A DNA stretch of 41,476 nucleotides. It comes from a virus. The notes beneath the pieces were generated by a model. The model was given only the letters and a program-made list of their open reading frames with translations. It had not been told where the DNA came from and searched no databases. Positions 3,436-41,476 of this stretch are shown one piece after another; the stretch's first letter is position 1; the number at the start of each line of letters is the position of its first letter. Location of the stretch: positions 1 to 41,476 of IMG/VR virus record IMGVR_UViG_3300023171_000024; one strand, given 5' to 3'. Position numbers and translations under genes: made by a program.

Positions 3436-4850
3436 CGCCCACCCCCAGTCGAGTAATCCACGTCCAGCCCCTGACAATAACTCCACCGCACACCCTCAGC
3501 GATCGTCGTCGTAATTGCCAGATACTTCCCCCGCGCACGGACCGGAACACGCCCCGACGGCTGCATAGTACCCGAAGTTACAAGCCCGATACGATCCCCC
3601 ATCCGCTGCCGCTGGTCGATAGAAATGGTAACGCCAGTGGTGGCGTCCGACATAGGCGTCAAAGAACGAACACGCGCTACCAGAGGGTCCGCCAAAGCTT
3701 GCCAACCCATCGTAATCACGGCTTGAAGGTTAGGCCCCGCAAGCGCCCCGATACGGCTCAGACGGTCCACCAGATACAGCCGTGGATCGCCGCCCTGGAA
3801 CCGCGGATCGTCCAGCGAATAGGGCATTGTGTCCAAGTCCGGATACAGCGCCGCCACATCCTCCAGGGACAAGCTGCTTTCATAGCCCGCGAAAAGCCCC
3901 AAGAAAGGTATTTCAATAGTGGAAGCGCGATCCAGAACCCAGTTATAGACCCAGATCCTGCCGGGGGTGCCGGGTACGCCCCAAAACACTAGCGAGCGCT
4001 TCGGATCGATCGCGGACCACATTTTTTCGTAATCTTCCGGCGACACGGAATCACGGAAGGCTTGGTCGAACTTCTCGTTGCCCAATGGCTTGAGCGACTG
4101 CCCATCCTCCAGCGACATGAAGCCGCGGTCGGACAGGAAGAACACAGAGCGGCCTGCCTGAGCGATCGAGCCAGAGGAAGCGCACCCGAAGTTGGGCGTA
4201 ATCTCGGAGAACGAGAACGGTGCCGTAGCATCCCCCGTCCGTTCCATACGAACCAGTCGGAACCGCTGAAGGATGACGCCGTATTCGCCGCCAGCTATGC
4301 CCTTGATCTCGCCACCGGTAAGCATCGGCTGGAACCCCGACTGGTCCACGCCCGCCGTCCATTTGGTGTGATCGTTGAAACCGGACCACTTCACCAGCAG
4401 CTTGTCGCCGCCGGCCTGCGTGATGACAACATAATCGCCCACCACCGCCACACCGTTAGCGCTGGGACAACCGGTAAGATCCGACGCCGTGCCTGCGTTA
4501 AGGTCGATCTGCTTGGTGGTTACCCCGTTGACCGCGACCACGAAGTTGCCGAACTGCACGAACCGCCAACGGTCTGCGATGGACAGGCCAACCAGAAGGT
4601 CCGTCCAACCGCCGCCTGAGTAGCGCGCTAGACCGTTTGCTGTGCCTGCCAGCAGATAGGTAGTGCCGTCCGTAGAGATAGCCGCAAAACCGCCCTTGAA
4701 CGTCGCCGGCAGTGGATCGGAGATGTTGGAAAAGCCGCGCACTGGGCGATAGCCGTCGGCAGCGGGGAAAACGTTGATAGCGCTAGTTAGCACATCGCGG
4801 GGTAGCTGGTCGGGAAGGTATGCGGGATAGGGGAGGCGTTTGGTACTCAA
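3432..4850 (-). CDS. Packaged-DNA stabilisation protein (P22 gp10-like tail hub)
   Basis: 472 residues resembling the packaged-DNA stabilisation/tail-hub proteins that plug the portal-neck after packaging. It begins with the recognisable LPYPAYLPDQ, then a repeated beta-rich body (YLLAGTANGLARYSG, VVAVNGV) as expected for a beta-propeller-like hub. The start is TTG, in a TTGA overlap with the adaptor gene stop. The gene lies directly after the adaptor gene, the usual podovirus order. Family assignment is from sequence style and synteny. Confidence 0.75.
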   Translation of the reverse strand: MSTKRLPYPAYLPDQLPRDVLTSAINVFPAADGYRPVRGFSNISDPLPATFKGGFAAISTDGTTYLLAGTANGLARYSGGGWTDLLVGLSIADRWRFVQFGNFVVAVNGVTTKQIDLNAGTASDLTGCPSANGVAVVGDYVVITQAGGDKLLVKWSGFNDHTKWTAGVDQSGFQPMLTGGEIKGIAGGEYGVILQRFRLVRMERTGDATAPFSFSEITPNFGCASSGSIAQAGRSVFFLSDRGFMSLEDGQSLKPLGNEKFDQAFRDSVSPEDYEKMWSAIDPKRSLVFWGVPGTPGRIWVYNWVLDRASTIEIPFLGLFAGYESSLSLEDVAALYPDLDTMPYSLDDPRFQGGDPRLYLVDRLSRIGALAGPNLQAVITMGWQALADPLVARVRSLTPMSDATTGVTISIDQRQRMGDRIGLVTSGTMQPSGRVPVRARGKYLAITTTIAEGVRWSYCQGLDVDYSTGGGR

Positions 4851-20398: not shown

Positions 20399-20565
20399 GA
20401 TTGAACCTGCAGGTAGTCGGAAAGCGTCTTGATCGTGCTATATGTCGGCTCGCTTCCACGCTTAACCAAGCTGTAAATCTTCATGTACGGCACGCCGCTG
20501 CGGCGGCTAACCTCCATGAGATTACGGTCTTCCAGCCGGTCTTTGATCTCCACTGGCGTCAGCAT
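20395..20565 (-). CDS. Small Cro/CI-like HTH regulator, 56 residues
   Basis: ATG with GAGGG five bases upstream, too short for most gene finders. MLTPVEIKDRLEDRNL, then MEVSRRSGVPYMKIYSLVKR and a helix ending in TIKTLSDYLQ, matches the XRE helix-turn-helix: the scaffold helix, then the turn at SGVPY and the recognition helix. It lacks an oligomerisation domain. It overlaps the primase gene and lies beside the divergent promoter region, so it probably controls the rightward replication promoter or its own transcript. Confidence 0.7.
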   Translation of the reverse strand: MLTPVEIKDRLEDRNLMEVSRRSGVPYMKIYSLVKRGSEPTYSTIKTLSDYLQVQS

Positions 20566-20586
20566 ATTTTCCCTCGCGCTAAAATT

Positions 20587-20625
20587 GTTGCTTGACTACT
20601 AACGCTATCAGGCGTCATAAGCAAC
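20587..20625 (+). promoter_or_regulatory. Rightward early promoter inside a 7-bp inverted repeat
   Basis: -35 TTGACT (20592-20597), 18-base spacer, -10 CATAAG (20616-20621). GTTGCTT (20587-20593) and AAGCAAC (20619-20625) form a perfect inverted repeat overlapping both promoter boxes, as an operator would. The RNA would start ~25 bases before the first rightward gene. The HTH gene beside it is the obvious candidate regulator. Confidence 0.6.
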
Positions 20626-20654
20626 CCCGGAAGCAAAGAGAGAAAGGCAAACAC

Positions 20655-21041
20655 ATGAGTGACATTCTGAATGCGCGTGTCCTGAGTGTAAAATTCAGCG
20701 ACGGCAACACCGAACAGCAATATGCATATTTCACCGACGACGCCTCGATCGCAGTTGACGATCTGGTTCTCGTTATGCCGCCCAAGGGACTACCCAAGGT
20801 GGTAAAGGTCTCTTCGGTCGACGAAACCGTGGAGGCAATCCAGCGCGTTCGCGAATGGATCATCTGCAAGGTTGATCTGACGCAGTATAAGGCCCGTAAG
20901 GAAGCTGAAGAAAAGCGAGCTGTCCTGCGTGCTAAAATCGAACGCGCTAAGGCCGATGCACTGGCCTCGTTTCAGATGGACGATCTGGTCGGTAGGAGCC
21001 CGGCGCTTGCATCGCTCATCGCTGAATACAACAAGATTTAA
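20655..21041 (+). CDS. First gene of replication operon, unknown, 128 residues
   Basis: ATG with GAGAAAGG nine bases upstream; a longer TTG start would lie inside the promoter and is not credible. The N-terminal ~70 residues are beta-rich (RVLSVKFSDGNTEQQYAYF). The C-terminal half is a charged helical region (KARKEAEEKRAVLRAKIERAKADAL). It resembles small phage proteins at the head of recombination operons, but the role is not known to me. The AGGAG for the next gene overlaps its stop. Confidence 0.65.
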   Translation: MSDILNARVLSVKFSDGNTEQQYAYFTDDASIAVDDLVLVMPPKGLPKVVKVSSVDETVEAIQRVREWIICKVDLTQYKARKEAEEKRAVLRAKIERAKADALASFQMDDLVGRSPALASLIAEYNKI

Positions 21042-23753: not shown

Positions 23754-24449
23754 ATGAGCGAGTTTTATGTTTATGTGCATCGTCGGGCGTCTGACGGTGC
23801 CATTTTTTATGTTGGCAAGGGTTCGGGCGGCAGGCTGCGCTCCAAAGCGAGCCGATCGCCTTTTTGGCATCAAATTGTAAATGAGCATGGGTTCGAAGCA
23901 GAAATATGTTCGCCTATGATGAGCAACGCCTGCGCACTTTCGTATGAAAAAATACTGATACATACGATTGGGTTTGATCGCCTGTGTAATCTCACAAGGG
24001 GCGGAAACAAGGGCGCTAGCGGATACAAGCCTGATAGGAAGGCTGTCGAAGATCGGGCTAGAAAGTGTATGAAGCCCGTTATAAATTCGGACGGTAAAAT
24101 TTACGCATCTTTGAAAGAAGCTGCGTTGGATATGCGCCTCAATGGGCACCCGAACGCAACCGAAGCGCATATTTCAAGTTGCTGCAAGGGAAGCAGACAT
24201 GTGGCTTTTGGCCGTTCATGGTCAATGGACACAACCTCGATTCCCCCGCTAATAGATGCTTCCAGCAAAGTTAATGAAGCTAGGAGGCGAGGCGTGGTTT
24301 CGTCTAACGGTATGTTTTTCGGAAGCGTATCACTCGCCGCCCAATGGGTTAGAATTACACTGAATGTCATGTGCGGGACTTCCGACATAAGCCGTTGTTG
24401 CAATAAAACCAGAAAAGCTTGCGGTGGGTTGGGATGGGATTATGTCTAA
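23754..24449 (+). CDS. GIY-YIG homing endonuclease (free-standing, Seg-like)
   Basis: 231 residues. GIY-YIG domain at the N-terminus: FYVYVHRR, then IFYVGKG, an Arg, and a catalytic-type Glu in SYEKI, followed by NLTRGG. Two similar DNA-recognition repeats follow (VINSDGKIYASLKEAAL with HVAFGRSW, and VVSSNGMFFGSVSLAAQ with ACGGLGWDYV), the NUMOD/IENR type. All core residues are present, so it may be active. The gene is AT-richer by eye than its neighbours and lies inside the recombinase-helicase operon, a sign of recent entry. It ends inside the helicase start. Confidence 0.85.
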   Translation: MSEFYVYVHRRASDGAIFYVGKGSGGRLRSKASRSPFWHQIVNEHGFEAEICSPMMSNACALSYEKILIHTIGFDRLCNLTRGGNKGASGYKPDRKAVEDRARKCMKPVINSDGKIYASLKEAALDMRLNGHPNATEAHISSCCKGSRHVAFGRSWSMDTTSIPPLIDASSKVNEARRRGVVSSNGMFFGSVSLAAQWVRITLNVMCGTSDISRCCNKTRKACGGLGWDYV

Positions 24450-27560: not shown

Positions 27561-28295
27561 TTACGCCGCCATCCTCCGCAAAGCCCGCCCAGCCCGCTCA
27601 ATAAGCTCGCTGTCCGAGATGCCGACAGACCGCCCACAGATCCAGAACCGTCCCTTGGGATCTTGGCGCCCTTCAGCGGTACACCGCACAACCGGTTTCC
27701 AACCATCTCGCTGCAACACCCGCTGAGCCTCCCCCGCCGTCGAGTCCTCCTTATACCCGCGATCGACAGGCGCGGTCATGTAGCCGGGTTTGGCGATCTT
27801 CTGTGGCTTGGAGGCGGGTTGGCGGGTGAAGTCTACGGCGCGGACGTTGGCGCCCTTCTGGGCCCTCTTGATGCCCTTCGAAACGACCCAGCGGCGCACG
27901 GTCTTCGTGCTGACCCCGTAGTGCTTACACAGCCACGATACAGGGTTTTCCGTCCACATGGTCACGAAGTCCTCTGGAACGGGCTTGGCGGGCACTCTGC
28001 GCGACTGTGGAGTTCCCTTGGACAGCCTGTAGCGATCAACAGCGTTGCAGACACGCTTGCGACCCACGTTCATCTGCTTGGCGATGGCGTCGTAGGAGTG
28101 CCCCGACTCCACCAGTGTCTTGAGGGTATTGAGCATTTCGTCCGTCCAGGCGCGCTGGTGGACCGACACGCCCGACATACGCCGCCAGCGCATGATAGTG
28201 TGCCTGCCGACACTGTAGCGTGTCATCTGCTCCGGTACCGTCTTGTGCAGGTGTTCGCGGAAGTCGGCGGGGAGGGGGTTTTTGAGGGGGGTCAT
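27561..28295 (-). CDS. Multi-HTH DNA-binding protein, 244 residues
   Basis: ATG in an ATGA overlap with the methyltransferase stop. Three homeodomain/resolvase-type helix-turn-helix units can be seen: near residues 20-45 (TRYSVGRHTIMRWRRM), 48-90 (YDAIAKQMNVGRKRVCNAVDRY) and 110-145 (WLCKHYGVSTKTVRRWV). The C-terminal domain reads VVRCTAEGRQDPKGRFWICG and ends SELIERAGRALRRM. It probably binds DNA as a regulator or target-site factor. The link to the adjacent methyltransferase genes is worth testing. Confidence 0.7.
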   Translation of the reverse strand: MTPLKNPLPADFREHLHKTVPEQMTRYSVGRHTIMRWRRMSGVSVHQRAWTDEMLNTLKTLVESGHSYDAIAKQMNVGRKRVCNAVDRYRLSKGTPQSRRVPAKPVPEDFVTMWTENPVSWLCKHYGVSTKTVRRWVVSKGIKRAQKGANVRAVDFTRQPASKPQKIAKPGYMTAPVDRGYKEDSTAGEAQRVLQRDGWKPVVRCTAEGRQDPKGRFWICGRSVGISDSELIERAGRALRRMAA

Positions 28296-29050
28296 GATGA
28301 TGCCTGAATATGATTGTTGATACGTTCGATTGCCTTGGCGCTGTATTCCTCGTCGCGCTCAATACAGATCCAGCGTCGTCCAGCCCGTTCGGCCGCAATA
28401 GCCGTGGTCCCTGCTCCAGCAGTATTATCTAAAACCACATCGCCGGGATTGGTGTAGGTGCGGATAAGATACTCGAAAAGCTCAACTGGCTTTTGCGTTG
28501 GATGAATCCCACCGCGTTCCACTACGCAAAAGTCGATGACCTGCTTGGGGTAGCGCTTACCATCGTTATCGTTTCGGAAATTGGTATAAGCGCCATAATT
28601 GTCCGTCATGCTGCTTGTGCCAGCATGGTTCTTACCCGCTTTATCCTTGTAGGGGGTACCATCTGTCATTTGAGGATTGTAAGTACACTGCTTGTCATAG
28701 AAAACCAGCACATCTTCCTTGTCACGCATAGGCTGACGTTTGGCGTTTAGATGTCCGGTTCCTTTTGGTTTACGCCATGTCCAGTCATATTTAAACATAG
28801 CTGGATTGGACATCACTAGAGCTGAAGTAAATGGTTGCGCGGCTGTCAGAACGATGGCCGCGCTATCTTTTGCTACCCATTCATAAGCCGCCCAAAGCTG
28901 GTCAAACGGAATTACGCTGTCCCATTTGTTTTGGGTTGTGCCGTAGGGCAGATCACACAAAACCATATCAACGGAATTGTCTGCGATCTCACTCATGGCG
29001 TCGAAGCAATCGGCGTTATACCAGACGCCATTTCCTATTTCGGTTCTCAC
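28292..29050 (-). CDS. DNA adenine-type methyltransferase (beta class)
   Basis: 252 residues. Catalytic motif IV DLPYGT at ~35-40 comes before the SAM-binding motif VLDNTAGAGTT (~210), which is the beta-class order of N6-adenine and N4-cytosine enzymes. HPTQKPVELFEYLIR leads to it. The GTG start gives a GTGA overlap with the membrane-peptide gene; an ATG 15 bases earlier is inside that gene. Free-standing phage methyltransferases usually protect phage DNA from host restriction or alter its control. Target sequence is not visible. Confidence 0.87.
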   Translation of the reverse strand: MRTEIGNGVWYNADCFDAMSEIADNSVDMVLCDLPYGTTQNKWDSVIPFDQLWAAYEWVAKDSAAIVLTAAQPFTSALVMSNPAMFKYDWTWRKPKGTGHLNAKRQPMRDKEDVLVFYDKQCTYNPQMTDGTPYKDKAGKNHAGTSSMTDNYGAYTNFRNDNDGKRYPKQVIDFCVVERGGIHPTQKPVELFEYLIRTYTNPGDVVLDNTAGAGTTAIAAERAGRRWICIERDEEYSAKAIERINNHIQASS

Positions 29051-29196
29051 ACCCCATCCTCCCATTCATCAACGCCGGGGCCGTAGTGGAAGCCGTCGGA
29101 GTCCTGATAACCGTCGGGCGCCGTCCAAATCACGTAAAGCATCGCTACGAACAAAATCACTAGCAACGCGATGAAGGCGTATGCGCCGGGGGTCAT
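29047..29196 (-). CDS. Small single-span membrane protein, 49 residues
   Basis: ATG in an ATGA overlap with the upstream methyltransferase. MTPGAYAFIALLVILFVAM is the start of one transmembrane helix, then WTAPDGYQDSDGFHYGP and an acidic Asp/Glu/Trp tail. A longer start exists but runs inside the upstream gene. A membrane protein between two methyltransferase genes is unusual. Role unknown. Confidence 0.6.
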   Translation of the reverse strand: MTPGAYAFIALLVILFVAMLYVIWTAPDGYQDSDGFHYGPGVDEWEDGV

Positions 29197-29798
29197 GACA
29201 GGTTGCTCCACTGTTCGGCCATTGCGTCGGCAATGCCTTGGTACGTCCGTGATCGTTCTTTCCATCGATTAGGTCCGGGCGGCATCTTGTGGATGCGGTC
29301 CGAGCGTCCTTCAACGATGTCTGTAGGTACCAGCTTGGGAAGGTTCTTCAGCCAAAGGCACGTTGCCTTCGTCTCGCCATGACCGAACTGCCATGGCTGA
29401 ATGATCTGGTCAGGCTTGCGGATCTTGCTGCTGATGACTGAGATAGGGTTTTCGAGGGCGATGCGCGGAATAGGGGAATCCAGCAATTTCCGTACGAAGT
29501 CCAACGCGCTCGCCTGTCGGCCATCCGCGATCTTCTCAGCGAAGTGACGAGCGCCACTGACAGCAAGATCGGTGCATGGTGGATGGGCGATCATTAAATC
29601 CCAGCCGCGTTCCCATGGCTTGGCACCGGGATACAAAAAGCGGCCTTCGTAATAAATCGCGCGAAATACGCCCATTTGCATATGCCACCTAGGATCACCC
29701 TCAGTCGGCAACAGATCACACGACCATGCATCATGCCCCTTCGCGCGAAACGCATCCCGCACCGTGGCAGAATATTCGCAGGCCACCAAAACTCTCAC
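29193..29798 (-). CDS. DNA cytosine-methyltransferase-like protein
   Basis: 201 residues. VLVACEYSATVRDAFRAKGH resembles motif I (SAM binding), AHPPCTDLAVSG carries the PPC of motif IV with the catalytic Cys, and ALENPISV matches motif VI with Pro for Val. No separate target-recognition domain was seen, so it is shorter than bacterial C5-methyltransferases. Phages carry many such short proteins. GTG start in a GTGA overlap with the regulator gene. Confidence 0.75.
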   Translation of the reverse strand: MRVLVACEYSATVRDAFRAKGHDAWSCDLLPTEGDPRWHMQMGVFRAIYYEGRFLYPGAKPWERGWDLMIAHPPCTDLAVSGARHFAEKIADGRQASALDFVRKLLDSPIPRIALENPISVISSKIRKPDQIIQPWQFGHGETKATCLWLKNLPKLVPTDIVEGRSDRIHKMPPGPNRWKERSRTYQGIADAMAEQWSNLS

Positions 29799-29992
29799 GA
29801 TTCCATCTCCTTATAAAGCTCAGGAACTGGCACACCGTGGACAGCGGCCAGTGTTCGCACCGAACCTAGCAGCAGGTCAGGGACGCCTTTTTTGGTCCAC
29901 ATGCCGATTGCTTGGCGCGAGATGTTGAAATGCGATCCCAGGCGGGCTCGGCCGATCCGCTCGATAGCGGGTGTGTGTGGGTGTTTTTCCAT
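29795..29992 (-). CDS. Cro/YdaS-like repressor, 65 residues, predicted leaderless
   Basis: Starts MEKHPHTPAIERIGRARLGSHFNI; the HTH reads LGSHFNISRQAIGMWTKKGVP, with NISRQAI as the recognition helix and a C-terminal helix (TLAAVHGVPVPELYKEM). It is the first gene of the leftward methyltransferase block. The predicted transcription start falls on the A of its ATG, so the RNA probably has no leader and no ribosome site. It likely represses one or both divergent promoters. Confidence 0.75.
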   Translation of the reverse strand: MEKHPHTPAIERIGRARLGSHFNISRQAIGMWTKKGVPDLLLGSVRTLAAVHGVPVPELYKEMES

Positions 29993-29998
29993 CCCCGA

Positions 29999-30062
29999 TA
30001 GCTACGCTCGCAAATATATTCCGTCAATCCCGGTTGACACGATTATTTTCCGCGCCCATAAC
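29999..30062. promoter_or_regulatory. Divergent promoter pair with inverted -35 boxes
   Basis: Rightward: TTGACA (30034-30039), 17 bases, CATAAC (30057-30062). Leftward: TTGACG (30027-30022), 17 bases, TAGCTA (30004-29999). The two -35 boxes face away from each other with 6 bases between, so GTCAA and TTGAC form an inverted repeat. Leftward transcription would start at about 29992, the first base of the repressor ATG. The layout is that of a two-way genetic switch. Confidence 0.65.
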
Positions 30063-30089
30063 CCCTCCAACAGCAATGGAGCAAATGAG

Positions 30090-30566
30090 ATGGCTGCTAC
30101 AAAAAATACCCCCACCGCCAACGCGCAGGACGTGACGGCGAAGCACACGCCGGGTCCTTGGAATATGGTCGACGAAGACAAGCGCATCGCCATTGGTGTC
30201 GGTCTTGTCGAAGGCCCTAACGGCTACGACGTGGCGGAAGTCTACAACGACGACTGCCCTCGCGAAGTAGGCGAGGCTAACGCCCGCTTGATTGCAGCCG
30301 CACCTGATCTGCTGGAGGCGCTGCAAGAGGTTTGCCGCCCGTACGGTATGCTCGACATTGTCGTGTCGGAGCACATGCACGGTTCGCGCGGTGACGACAT
30401 GCTCGCCGTGGCGAAGAAGGTCCGTGCTGCCCTTGCCAAGGTCACGGCAGCAGCCACCTGCCCCCGCTGCGACGGCCACGGTGTAATTAACGTCGAGGAT
30501 CGTCCGTACCCGAACGACATCAGCCCTTCGACACACGAAGCACCATGCCCGGAGTGCAGCGCATGA
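30090..30566 (+). CDS. Early accessory protein with C-terminal zinc-finger-like motif, 158 residues
   Basis: ATG with GGAG eight bases upstream; longer frames start inside the promoter or repressor and are rejected. The N-terminus contains HTPGPWNMVDEDK and DVAEVYNDD, and the middle NARLIAAAPDLLEAL, a motif repeated in many phage early proteins (Ea22-like). The C-terminus CPRCDGHGVI followed by CPECSA is a CXXC-GXG zinc-finger like those of DnaJ-type domains. First gene after the rightward early promoter. Function unknown. Confidence 0.65.
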   Translation: MAATKNTPTANAQDVTAKHTPGPWNMVDEDKRIAIGVGLVEGPNGYDVAEVYNDDCPREVGEANARLIAAAPDLLEALQEVCRPYGMLDIVVSEHMHGSRGDDMLAVAKKVRAALAKVTAAATCPRCDGHGVINVEDRPYPNDISPSTHEAPCPECSA

Positions 30567-40319: not shown

Positions 40320-41476
40320 TCATTGCGTCGCCAACTGCGAACCAGCGCCGGCAAGCATGGGCGCACCGAAAAGACCGCCAATGCGCGCCCGGTTCGCTAT
40401 GCCGTTACCAGCGCGGATAAGCATATCAGGACGATCGAGCAGAGCAGCCGTTAGGGCGCGCTGGCCTGCGCGAGTTCCGCCGCCCGCAAGAAGTGCCGCC
40501 AACGCCAACGTACCACCTGCGCCCTTAGCTGCACCTTCTGCGCCGTCGGATGCATAGCCACCACCACCAGCCGCCGTAAGGCCTGCCGTGAGCGCCACAC
40601 GGCCCGCTGTGCCGCTATCGGCAACTTTGCTAGTCAAAACCCTCTGCCCCGCGCGCGTAAGGTCAAAGAATGGCTGGCGTGTGGTACCCTGCGAGTTGCC
40701 GAACTTTTTGGAATTAGCAGCAGCGGCATCGGCAAGCTGCGAGGGAGCAAAGACACCGGGCTCGCCAACACGCGTACCGACACGCGCGCGGTTCACGGCA
40801 TCGCGAAGGATTTCCGTGTTCCGATACGCTCCGTTAGCTGCCTGATAGGCAGGGATGACATCCGGCGCCTGTCGGTTAAGAAGCCCCTCTAGGGCGCCTT
40901 CGGCTTGCCGTGTGACGTTGCCAAAGTCCTGCCCATACGGCTCATTGCGCATAACAGCGGCATCTTGCCGTAGTCCGCGCATCGACTGCTGGAACCCGTT
41001 TCCGGTCAATCCGCCGTTCGGATCGAAGGAGTTCCCGACGCGCGTTGGTAGAGTGTAGGCAGCGTTACCGCGCATAGGATCTGGCAAAGCTTGCCCCGCC
41101 TGAACCGCACCGCGCATATCGCCAACGAACGGCGCATCAGCCTGAACGTTCACGCCATCCAACGCCTGATTGTAAGCATCACCGACGCGGTTCTGAGCTA
41201 CGTCAATGCCTTGCTCACCAATTTCCCCGCCAGTGTTGGCATTGATCGGCGCAAGCCCCTCGTCCATTGCCGCGCGGTTGAAACCCTGAAACCCCTCCAA
41301 GCGGCGTGCATTGGTCATAGTCCCAACACCGGGAAGGCCAGTAGTAAGGTCTTCCGCAGTCTTGACCGCCGCGCCCAAGCGGCCGGACTGCGAAAGCGCC
41401 TGTCCTGCCGTCAAAGGCACACCCTGCGAACGAAGCAGCTGCACGCTAGGATCCTGCACACCACGCAGCAGCCCCC
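40320..41476 (-). CDS. Large putative ejection/internal virion protein, C-terminal part (enters from window edge)
   Basis: About 385 residues with no start at the edge; the first usable codon is a GTG at 41459, but the frame is open to the edge (GLLRGVQD before it). NVQADAPFVGDMRGAVQAGQ, SMRGLRQDAAVMRNEPYGQ and a Gly/Ala-rich hydrophobic end (LTAGLTAAGGGGYASDGA, then GAGGTLALAALLAGG) fit a pore-forming virion protein. Joined to the part at 1-1311 it would give at least ~820 residues. A direct circular join is out of frame; a missing piece with length 1 more than a multiple of 3 would restore it. A 101-base gap without features follows its stop. Confidence 0.7.
   Translation of the reverse strand, partial: GLLRGVQDPSVQLLRSQGVPLTAGQALSQSGRLGAAVKTAEDLTTGLPGVGTMTNARRLEGFQGFNRAAMDEGLAPINANTGGEIGEQGIDVAQNRVGDAYNQALDGVNVQADAPFVGDMRGAVQAGQALPDPMRGNAAYTLPTRVGNSFDPNGGLTGNGFQQSMRGLRQDAAVMRNEPYGQDFGNVTRQAEGALEGLLNRQAPDVIPAYQAANGAYRNTEILRDAVNRARVGTRVGEPGVFAPSQLADAAAANSKKFGNSQGTTRQPFFDLTRAGQRVLTSKVADSGTAGRVALTAGLTAAGGGGYASDGAEGAAKGAGGTLALAALLAGGGTRAGQRALTAALLDRPDMLIRAGNGIANRARIGGLFGAPMLAGAGSQLATQ

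Follow-up and report, generated by a model that had tools for sequence, protein, structure and literature searches.

The window analysed here is the whole stretch of virus record IMGVR_UViG_3300023171_000024, with a length of 41,476 bases. Matches to phage families were obtained for its portal, scaffold, major head and terminase genes, and the nearest terminases are those of Rhizobium phage RHph_Y1_10, Sulfitobacter phages pCB2047-A/C, Paracoccus phage KLEP18-1 and Microcystis phage Mae-JY35. No terminal repeat that would indicate circular closure of the window was found. Both of its ends (1-1335 and 40320-41476, minus strand) lie in open minus-strand frames that are mutually out of register, which makes a small gap likely; apart from this gap, and perhaps a few bases missing at the ends, the record is probably complete. 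The locus of interest is a 97-base intergenic region between a leftward gene of 65 codons and a rightward gene of 158 codons, with the following features.

27561-28295 (-), leftward-operon gene for a 244-aa helix-turn-helix protein, which passes the Pfam cut-offs for HTH_23 and GcrA
28292-29065 (-), N6/N4 DNA methyltransferase gene (PF01555)
29193-29798 (-), second gene of the leftward operon, encoding a DNA methyltransferase (phrog_757)
29795-29992 (-), open reading frame of the 65-aa helix-turn-helix regulator, predicted leaderless
29807-29812 (-), Shine-Dalgarno AAGGAG of the second leftward gene (-10.0 kcal/mol), in contrast to the leaderless first gene
29999-30004 (-), -10 hexamer TAGCTA of the leftward promoter, no -7T, 6 nt before the ATG
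30011-30023 (-), candidate operator copy CGGAATATATTTG in the leftward promoter spacer
30022-30027 (-), -35 box TTGACG of the leftward promoter
30023-30038 (no strand), inverted repeat GTCAA-N6-TTGAC formed by the two -35 boxes
30034-30039 (+), -35 box TTGACA of the rightward promoter
30040-30052 (-), candidate operator copy CGGAAAATAATCG in the rightward promoter spacer
30057-30062 (+), -10 hexamer CATAAC of the rightward promoter, no -7T, 17-nt spacer
30078-30081 (+), Shine-Dalgarno GGAG of the divergent gene (-5.6 kcal/mol)
30090-30566 (+), first rightward gene, open reading frame of 158 aa with a family match to phrog_1273, function unknown

The original prediction had described two divergent promoters, a repeat between them and a repressor ATG at 29992, and each of these elements is found at the position it gave. 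The locus was compared with 16 relatives from viral contigs, whose proteins are 34-97% identical to the 65-aa protein of the window. Together with the window these give 17 upstream regions and 14 non-redundant sequences, which share ancestry and hence are not 14 independent trials. In relatives L013 and L020, cousins of the phrog_1273 protein are encoded directly downstream of the 65-aa gene and hence on the other side of the switch.

Back-to-back promoters and candidate operators

On the rightward side the -35 box reads TTGACN or TTGCGN in 14 of 14 sequences, and TTGNNN is followed by xATAMM at exactly 17 nt in 12 of them; the rightward RNA is predicted to start at approximately 30069. When both sides are taken together, TTG is present at -35 and A at -11 in 28 of 28 promoters and T is the last base in 0 of the 28 assigned -10 hexamers, with spacers chosen by eye within 16-18 nt and hexamers that are weak matches to TATAAT. 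The first hexamer base is T in 10 of 14 leftward and C in 13 of 14 rightward promoters. TTG at -35, TA at -12/-11 and an often absent -7T describe alphaproteobacterial sigma70 promoters, and both promoters have this form, which is a tendency and not proof of host. The -7T is absent from most sigma70 promoters of alphaproteobacteria (PMC8407463), and leaderless mRNAs are common in this class, with 375 in Caulobacter crescentus (PMC4117421) and 171, all AUG-starting, in Sinorhizobium meliloti (PMC3616915). Combined with the terminase relatives, these features point to a host that is probably an alphaproteobacterium.

Comparison across the relatives supports the predicted arrangement of divergent promoters with back-to-back -35 boxes. 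The inverted repeat that the boxes form is real, with exact arms at 30023-30027 (GTCAA) and 30034-30038 (TTGAC), 6 nt apart. Its exact form is present a single time in the window, where about 0.04 copies are expected (simple arithmetic on 10 fixed bases), and additional copies with up to two mismatches are not above chance in the window (11 versus 13.2 expected). It had been proposed that the repeat is itself the operator, with one dimer bound across both -35 boxes shutting both promoters. In favour of this, the 6-nt gap recurs in L019, L020 and L022, and in L012 both boxes have changed together into the 7-bp perfect arms ACGCAAG-CCC-CTTGCGT. However, TTGAC is the -35 consensus, and the repeat thus follows from two adjacent boxes. 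The search of related phages suggested as a check found gaps of 3, 4, 5 or 6 nt in 12 of 14 sequences and of 14 nt in L025 and 23 nt in L014. Such variation argues against one rigid dimer site, which would not tolerate it. In 5 of 14 sequences, moreover, the repeat is either imperfect or out of place, and L008, L013 and L024 have no exact copy. Hence, we regard the repeat as an unlikely operator. What is kept is the closeness of the -35 boxes, which should make the two promoters mutually exclusive.

Paired sites in the two promoter spacers are better candidates than the repeat, and on the comparative evidence they are likely operators. In the window the two copies, 29 bp apart, are identical at 10 of 13 positions (shuffle P=0.01), and over the 14 sequences direct repeats at a lag of 29 top all lags from 8 to 45 (z=4.6). 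The evidence leans mainly on two relatives with perfect 13-14-mer repeats, in which CGCGAAAATTGTTC (L010) and AGGAAAATATTTG (L024) each occur twice, 29 bp apart, with each promoter spacer holding one copy. The left and right spacers of one phage resemble each other more closely than do those of different phages (P=0.0027, or P=0.057 without L010 and L024). The lag-29 repeat was not seen in several relatives (L009, L019, L022 and L023), and the genomes of L010, L024 and the window hold no other copy of the candidate sites within one mismatch. Spacer repeats in inverted orientation gave no within-phage signal (P 0.10-0.63), and we therefore propose direct repeats only.

The most divergent relatives carry a different operator candidate, the palindrome GCGCA-N5-TGCGC, with 2-3 copies or near-copies over the switch (L014, 3911-3990; L015; L025, about 3924-3980). 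In L014 and L025 it is found alongside a different recognition helix. The palindrome was rejected as the mark of a genome-wide regulon in L014, L015 and L025, given that few exact copies exist and most of them lie at the switch; elsewhere in these genomes, whose DNA is GC-rich, copies with one mismatch abound.

A predicted leaderless start

On the minus strand the leftward elements follow in the order TTGACG, a 17-nt spacer, TAGCTA, TCGGGG and ATG, with the A at 29992. An in-frame TAG lies 12 nt upstream of this ATG, which makes it the first possible start of the 65-codon frame. Judged from the window alone, the claim that the leftward RNA has no leader is weak: TAGCTA matches TATAAT at only two of six positions, and because of this a promoter scan passed over the claimed promoter and favoured GTGTCA-16-TATATT instead. 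Support for a start at about 29992 comes from the comparison.

All 17 upstream regions have a TTG 34-36 nt ahead of the regulator start codon, which is ATG in every one, and in 14 of 14 sequences a YA.... hexamer fits 5-7 nt ahead of this ATG. The complete pattern, TTG-N3-N16..18-YA-N4-N5..7-ATG, is present in all 14 non-redundant sequences, compared with 0.6-4.3% per sequence in shuffles. This geometry is conserved despite a mean identity of just 34% in the stretch from -31 to -1 relative to the ATG. Shine-Dalgarno energies are weaker for the 65-aa gene (median -1.65 kcal/mol) than for the next gene (-8.05, P=5e-4) or the divergent gene (-7.6, P=1e-4). An AUG start and no usable Shine-Dalgarno site, the pattern of a leaderless mRNA gene, are hence found throughout, except in L012, in which a good Shine-Dalgarno site (-9.6) overlaps the putative -10.

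The promoter favoured by the scan would instead start the leftward RNA approximately 14 nt further upstream and leave a short leader without a Shine-Dalgarno site. It has 9 of 12 consensus matches and is the sole promoter scored at this place. However, it is missing as a promoter in L010, L012, L020, L022 and L023, whereas the distance from the -35 box to the ATG is kept in 14 of 14 sequences. Its -10 furthermore relies on the E. coli consensus, which the rightward promoter likewise disobeys. We consider this upstream start improbable.

The regulator, its neighbours and phage lifestyle

The AlphaFold2 model of the 65-aa protein is all-helical, with five helices and a mean pLDDT of 90.5. By motif and model the protein is helix-turn-helix-like; the layout of the locus suggests its role as a repressor. 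Searches of solved structures by sequence profile and by fold returned nothing significant and no close PDB fold for the model, phage and plasmid records held no relatives, and two pattern scans of 84,980 bacterial and archaeal species genomes found no homologue. The label 'Cro/YdaS-like' given in the original prediction could not be sustained. YdaS (PF15943) scores 12.7 bits against a Pfam gathering cut-off of 30, with nine family members matching at a best E of 0.016, and Phage_CI_repr (PF07022) scores 13.8 bits against a cut-off of 22. P22_Cro (PF14549) matches only 2 of 17 members (best E 0.0083) and is not significant, and there is no HTH_XRE family match. Weak similarity was seen to the phrog_8008 DNA binding protein (14 of 17 family members) and to NF046037 carph-isopro (11 of 17), but for the latter the best listed member, at 25.5 bits, falls short of the curated cut-off of 38 bits and the window protein has no match. 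A second small protein in the L025 genome (G011:C1:27280-27405), about 4 kb from the switch gene, is above the NF046037 cut-off.

The regulator had also been paired with a methyltransferase operon. Methyltransferase genes do lie downstream of it in the window, but they are near the 65-aa gene in only a minority of relatives and so are not a constant partner. The 244-aa helix-turn-helix protein is the more constant one, being found near the 65-aa gene in at least 9 of 16 relative loci; partner counts are lower bounds, as some loci are short. In the window, the 244-aa protein scores 29.5 bits for GcrA in Pfam (cut-off 26.9 bits) and higher for HTH_23. Its gene overlaps the N6/N4 DNA methyltransferase gene by 4 bases, which recalls the GcrA/CcrM pair of alphaproteobacteria.

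The layout resembles the lysogeny switches of temperate phages, in which the 65-aa protein would act as a cI or cro. Phage lambda has the divergent promoters PRM and PR, a leaderless cI and operators overlapping both promoters, together with two antagonistic proteins, three operators, a 236-aa CI and an integrase. The window shares the divergent promoters, a regulator gene predicted to be leaderless and candidate operators that overlap both promoters. Unlike lambda, it has a single 65-aa protein, two candidate sites and no integrase that we could find.

Leaderless prophage repressors are likewise encoded in the other two switches of this layout. In prophage CP-933P the PaaR2/YdaS intergenic region is also 97 bp long, with direct and inverted repeats over both promoters and a repressor found to be leaderless by 5' RACE, but it serves two competing regulators (PMC8630535), sits in a prophage and belongs to different sequence families. 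The cI/cro region of telomere phage PY54 has leaderless repressor mRNAs from divergent promoters; in contrast to the one predicted leaderless gene in the window, both of its genes are leaderless, and Cro binds a single site in a temperate plasmid prophage (PMC4488713). The terminase cousins RHph_Y1_10 and pCB2047-A, moreover, carry an integrase and repressors.

Against a lysogeny switch, no tyrosine integrase was found in the 15 records carrying the switch, by a search that was positive in two temperate-looking structural-gene cousins. The window, too, shows no integrase or other lysogeny gene in a record that may lack a few end bases. S24 peptidase and serine recombinase were not found in the 7 records searched, nor ParA in the 12 searched, and the lack of a homologue in the two pattern scans of bacterial and archaeal genomes likewise speaks against such a switch. 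The divergent side has no second repressor, its phrog_1273 product giving no helix-turn-helix match, and thus the two divergently encoded antagonistic repressors of a lambda-type switch are not seen. Since the searches yielded neither an integrase nor an S24-type repressor, we consider a lambda-type role in lysogeny unlikely and put little weight on a temperate switch of this kind. Together with the missing ParA, this indicates that the switch is probably a brake on early transcription.

Restriction-modification controller (C) proteins are small autoregulators, with leaderless (AhdI) and overlapping divergent-promoter (EcoRV) examples (PMC5333194), and the small helix-turn-helix regulator with a methyltransferase gene downstream would fit one timing the methyltransferase operon, but this is very improbable: the scanned neighbours include no identified restriction gene, only methyltransferases that most relatives lack, and the 65-aa protein has neither detected C-protein homology nor the HTH_XRE match.

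A proposed one-protein early switch

From the elements, their conserved geometry, the missing Shine-Dalgarno site, the repeats seen in part of the relatives and the failure to detect lysogeny genes, we infer a divergent early switch run by one protein, and hold this complete explanation to be probable, with considerable room for doubt. Two host-sigma70 promoters without a -7T would face away from each other with their -35 boxes 6 nt apart, a distance at which polymerase could probably occupy only one at a time. The leftward RNA would start at the A of the regulator ATG and be translated leaderless, and the rest of the leftward operon and the divergent operon would use Shine-Dalgarno sites. The 65-aa protein would most likely bind two phage-specific sites 29 bp apart, one in each -35/-10 spacer, and shut off both promoters when bound. 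It would hence regulate its own gene and, in a phage with no evident lysogeny genes, act as a Cro-like brake on early transcription.

By analogy, the switch would work like the lambda, PY54, PaaR2/YdaS and AhdI cases, although by sequence it is a member of none. It differs from them in its one short regulator, its near-abutting -35 boxes and the absence of detected lysogeny genes. A broader reading, which we offer tentatively and think may well be wrong, is that of a virulent-phage lineage with no lysogeny programme, in which a single, always-leaderless 65-aa regulator and two mutually exclusive promoters of the CarD type (no -7T) form an early timer; polymerase competition would choose the operon, and one protein at the paired spacer operators would then close the choice.

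Leaderless phage repressors are so far known from a few temperate model phages. If the proposal is true, a lineage-wide leaderless regulator in phages without evident lysogeny genes, combining fast-changing operators with a short one-gene regulator, would allow a test of why repressor genes stay leaderless. It would also provide a compact natural divergent switch suited to alphaproteobacteria, which are unlike E. coli in their promoters and leaderless translation.

Two further observations concern the replication genes of the window. A homing-endonuclease-like gene (23754-24449, plus strand) lies in the replication module between a RecE-like exonuclease and a helicase. A second divergent region (20399-20655), between a primase-helicase gene and the rightward replication operon, contains TTGACT (20592) and, 18 nt downstream, CATAAG, which is the promoter style of the switch.
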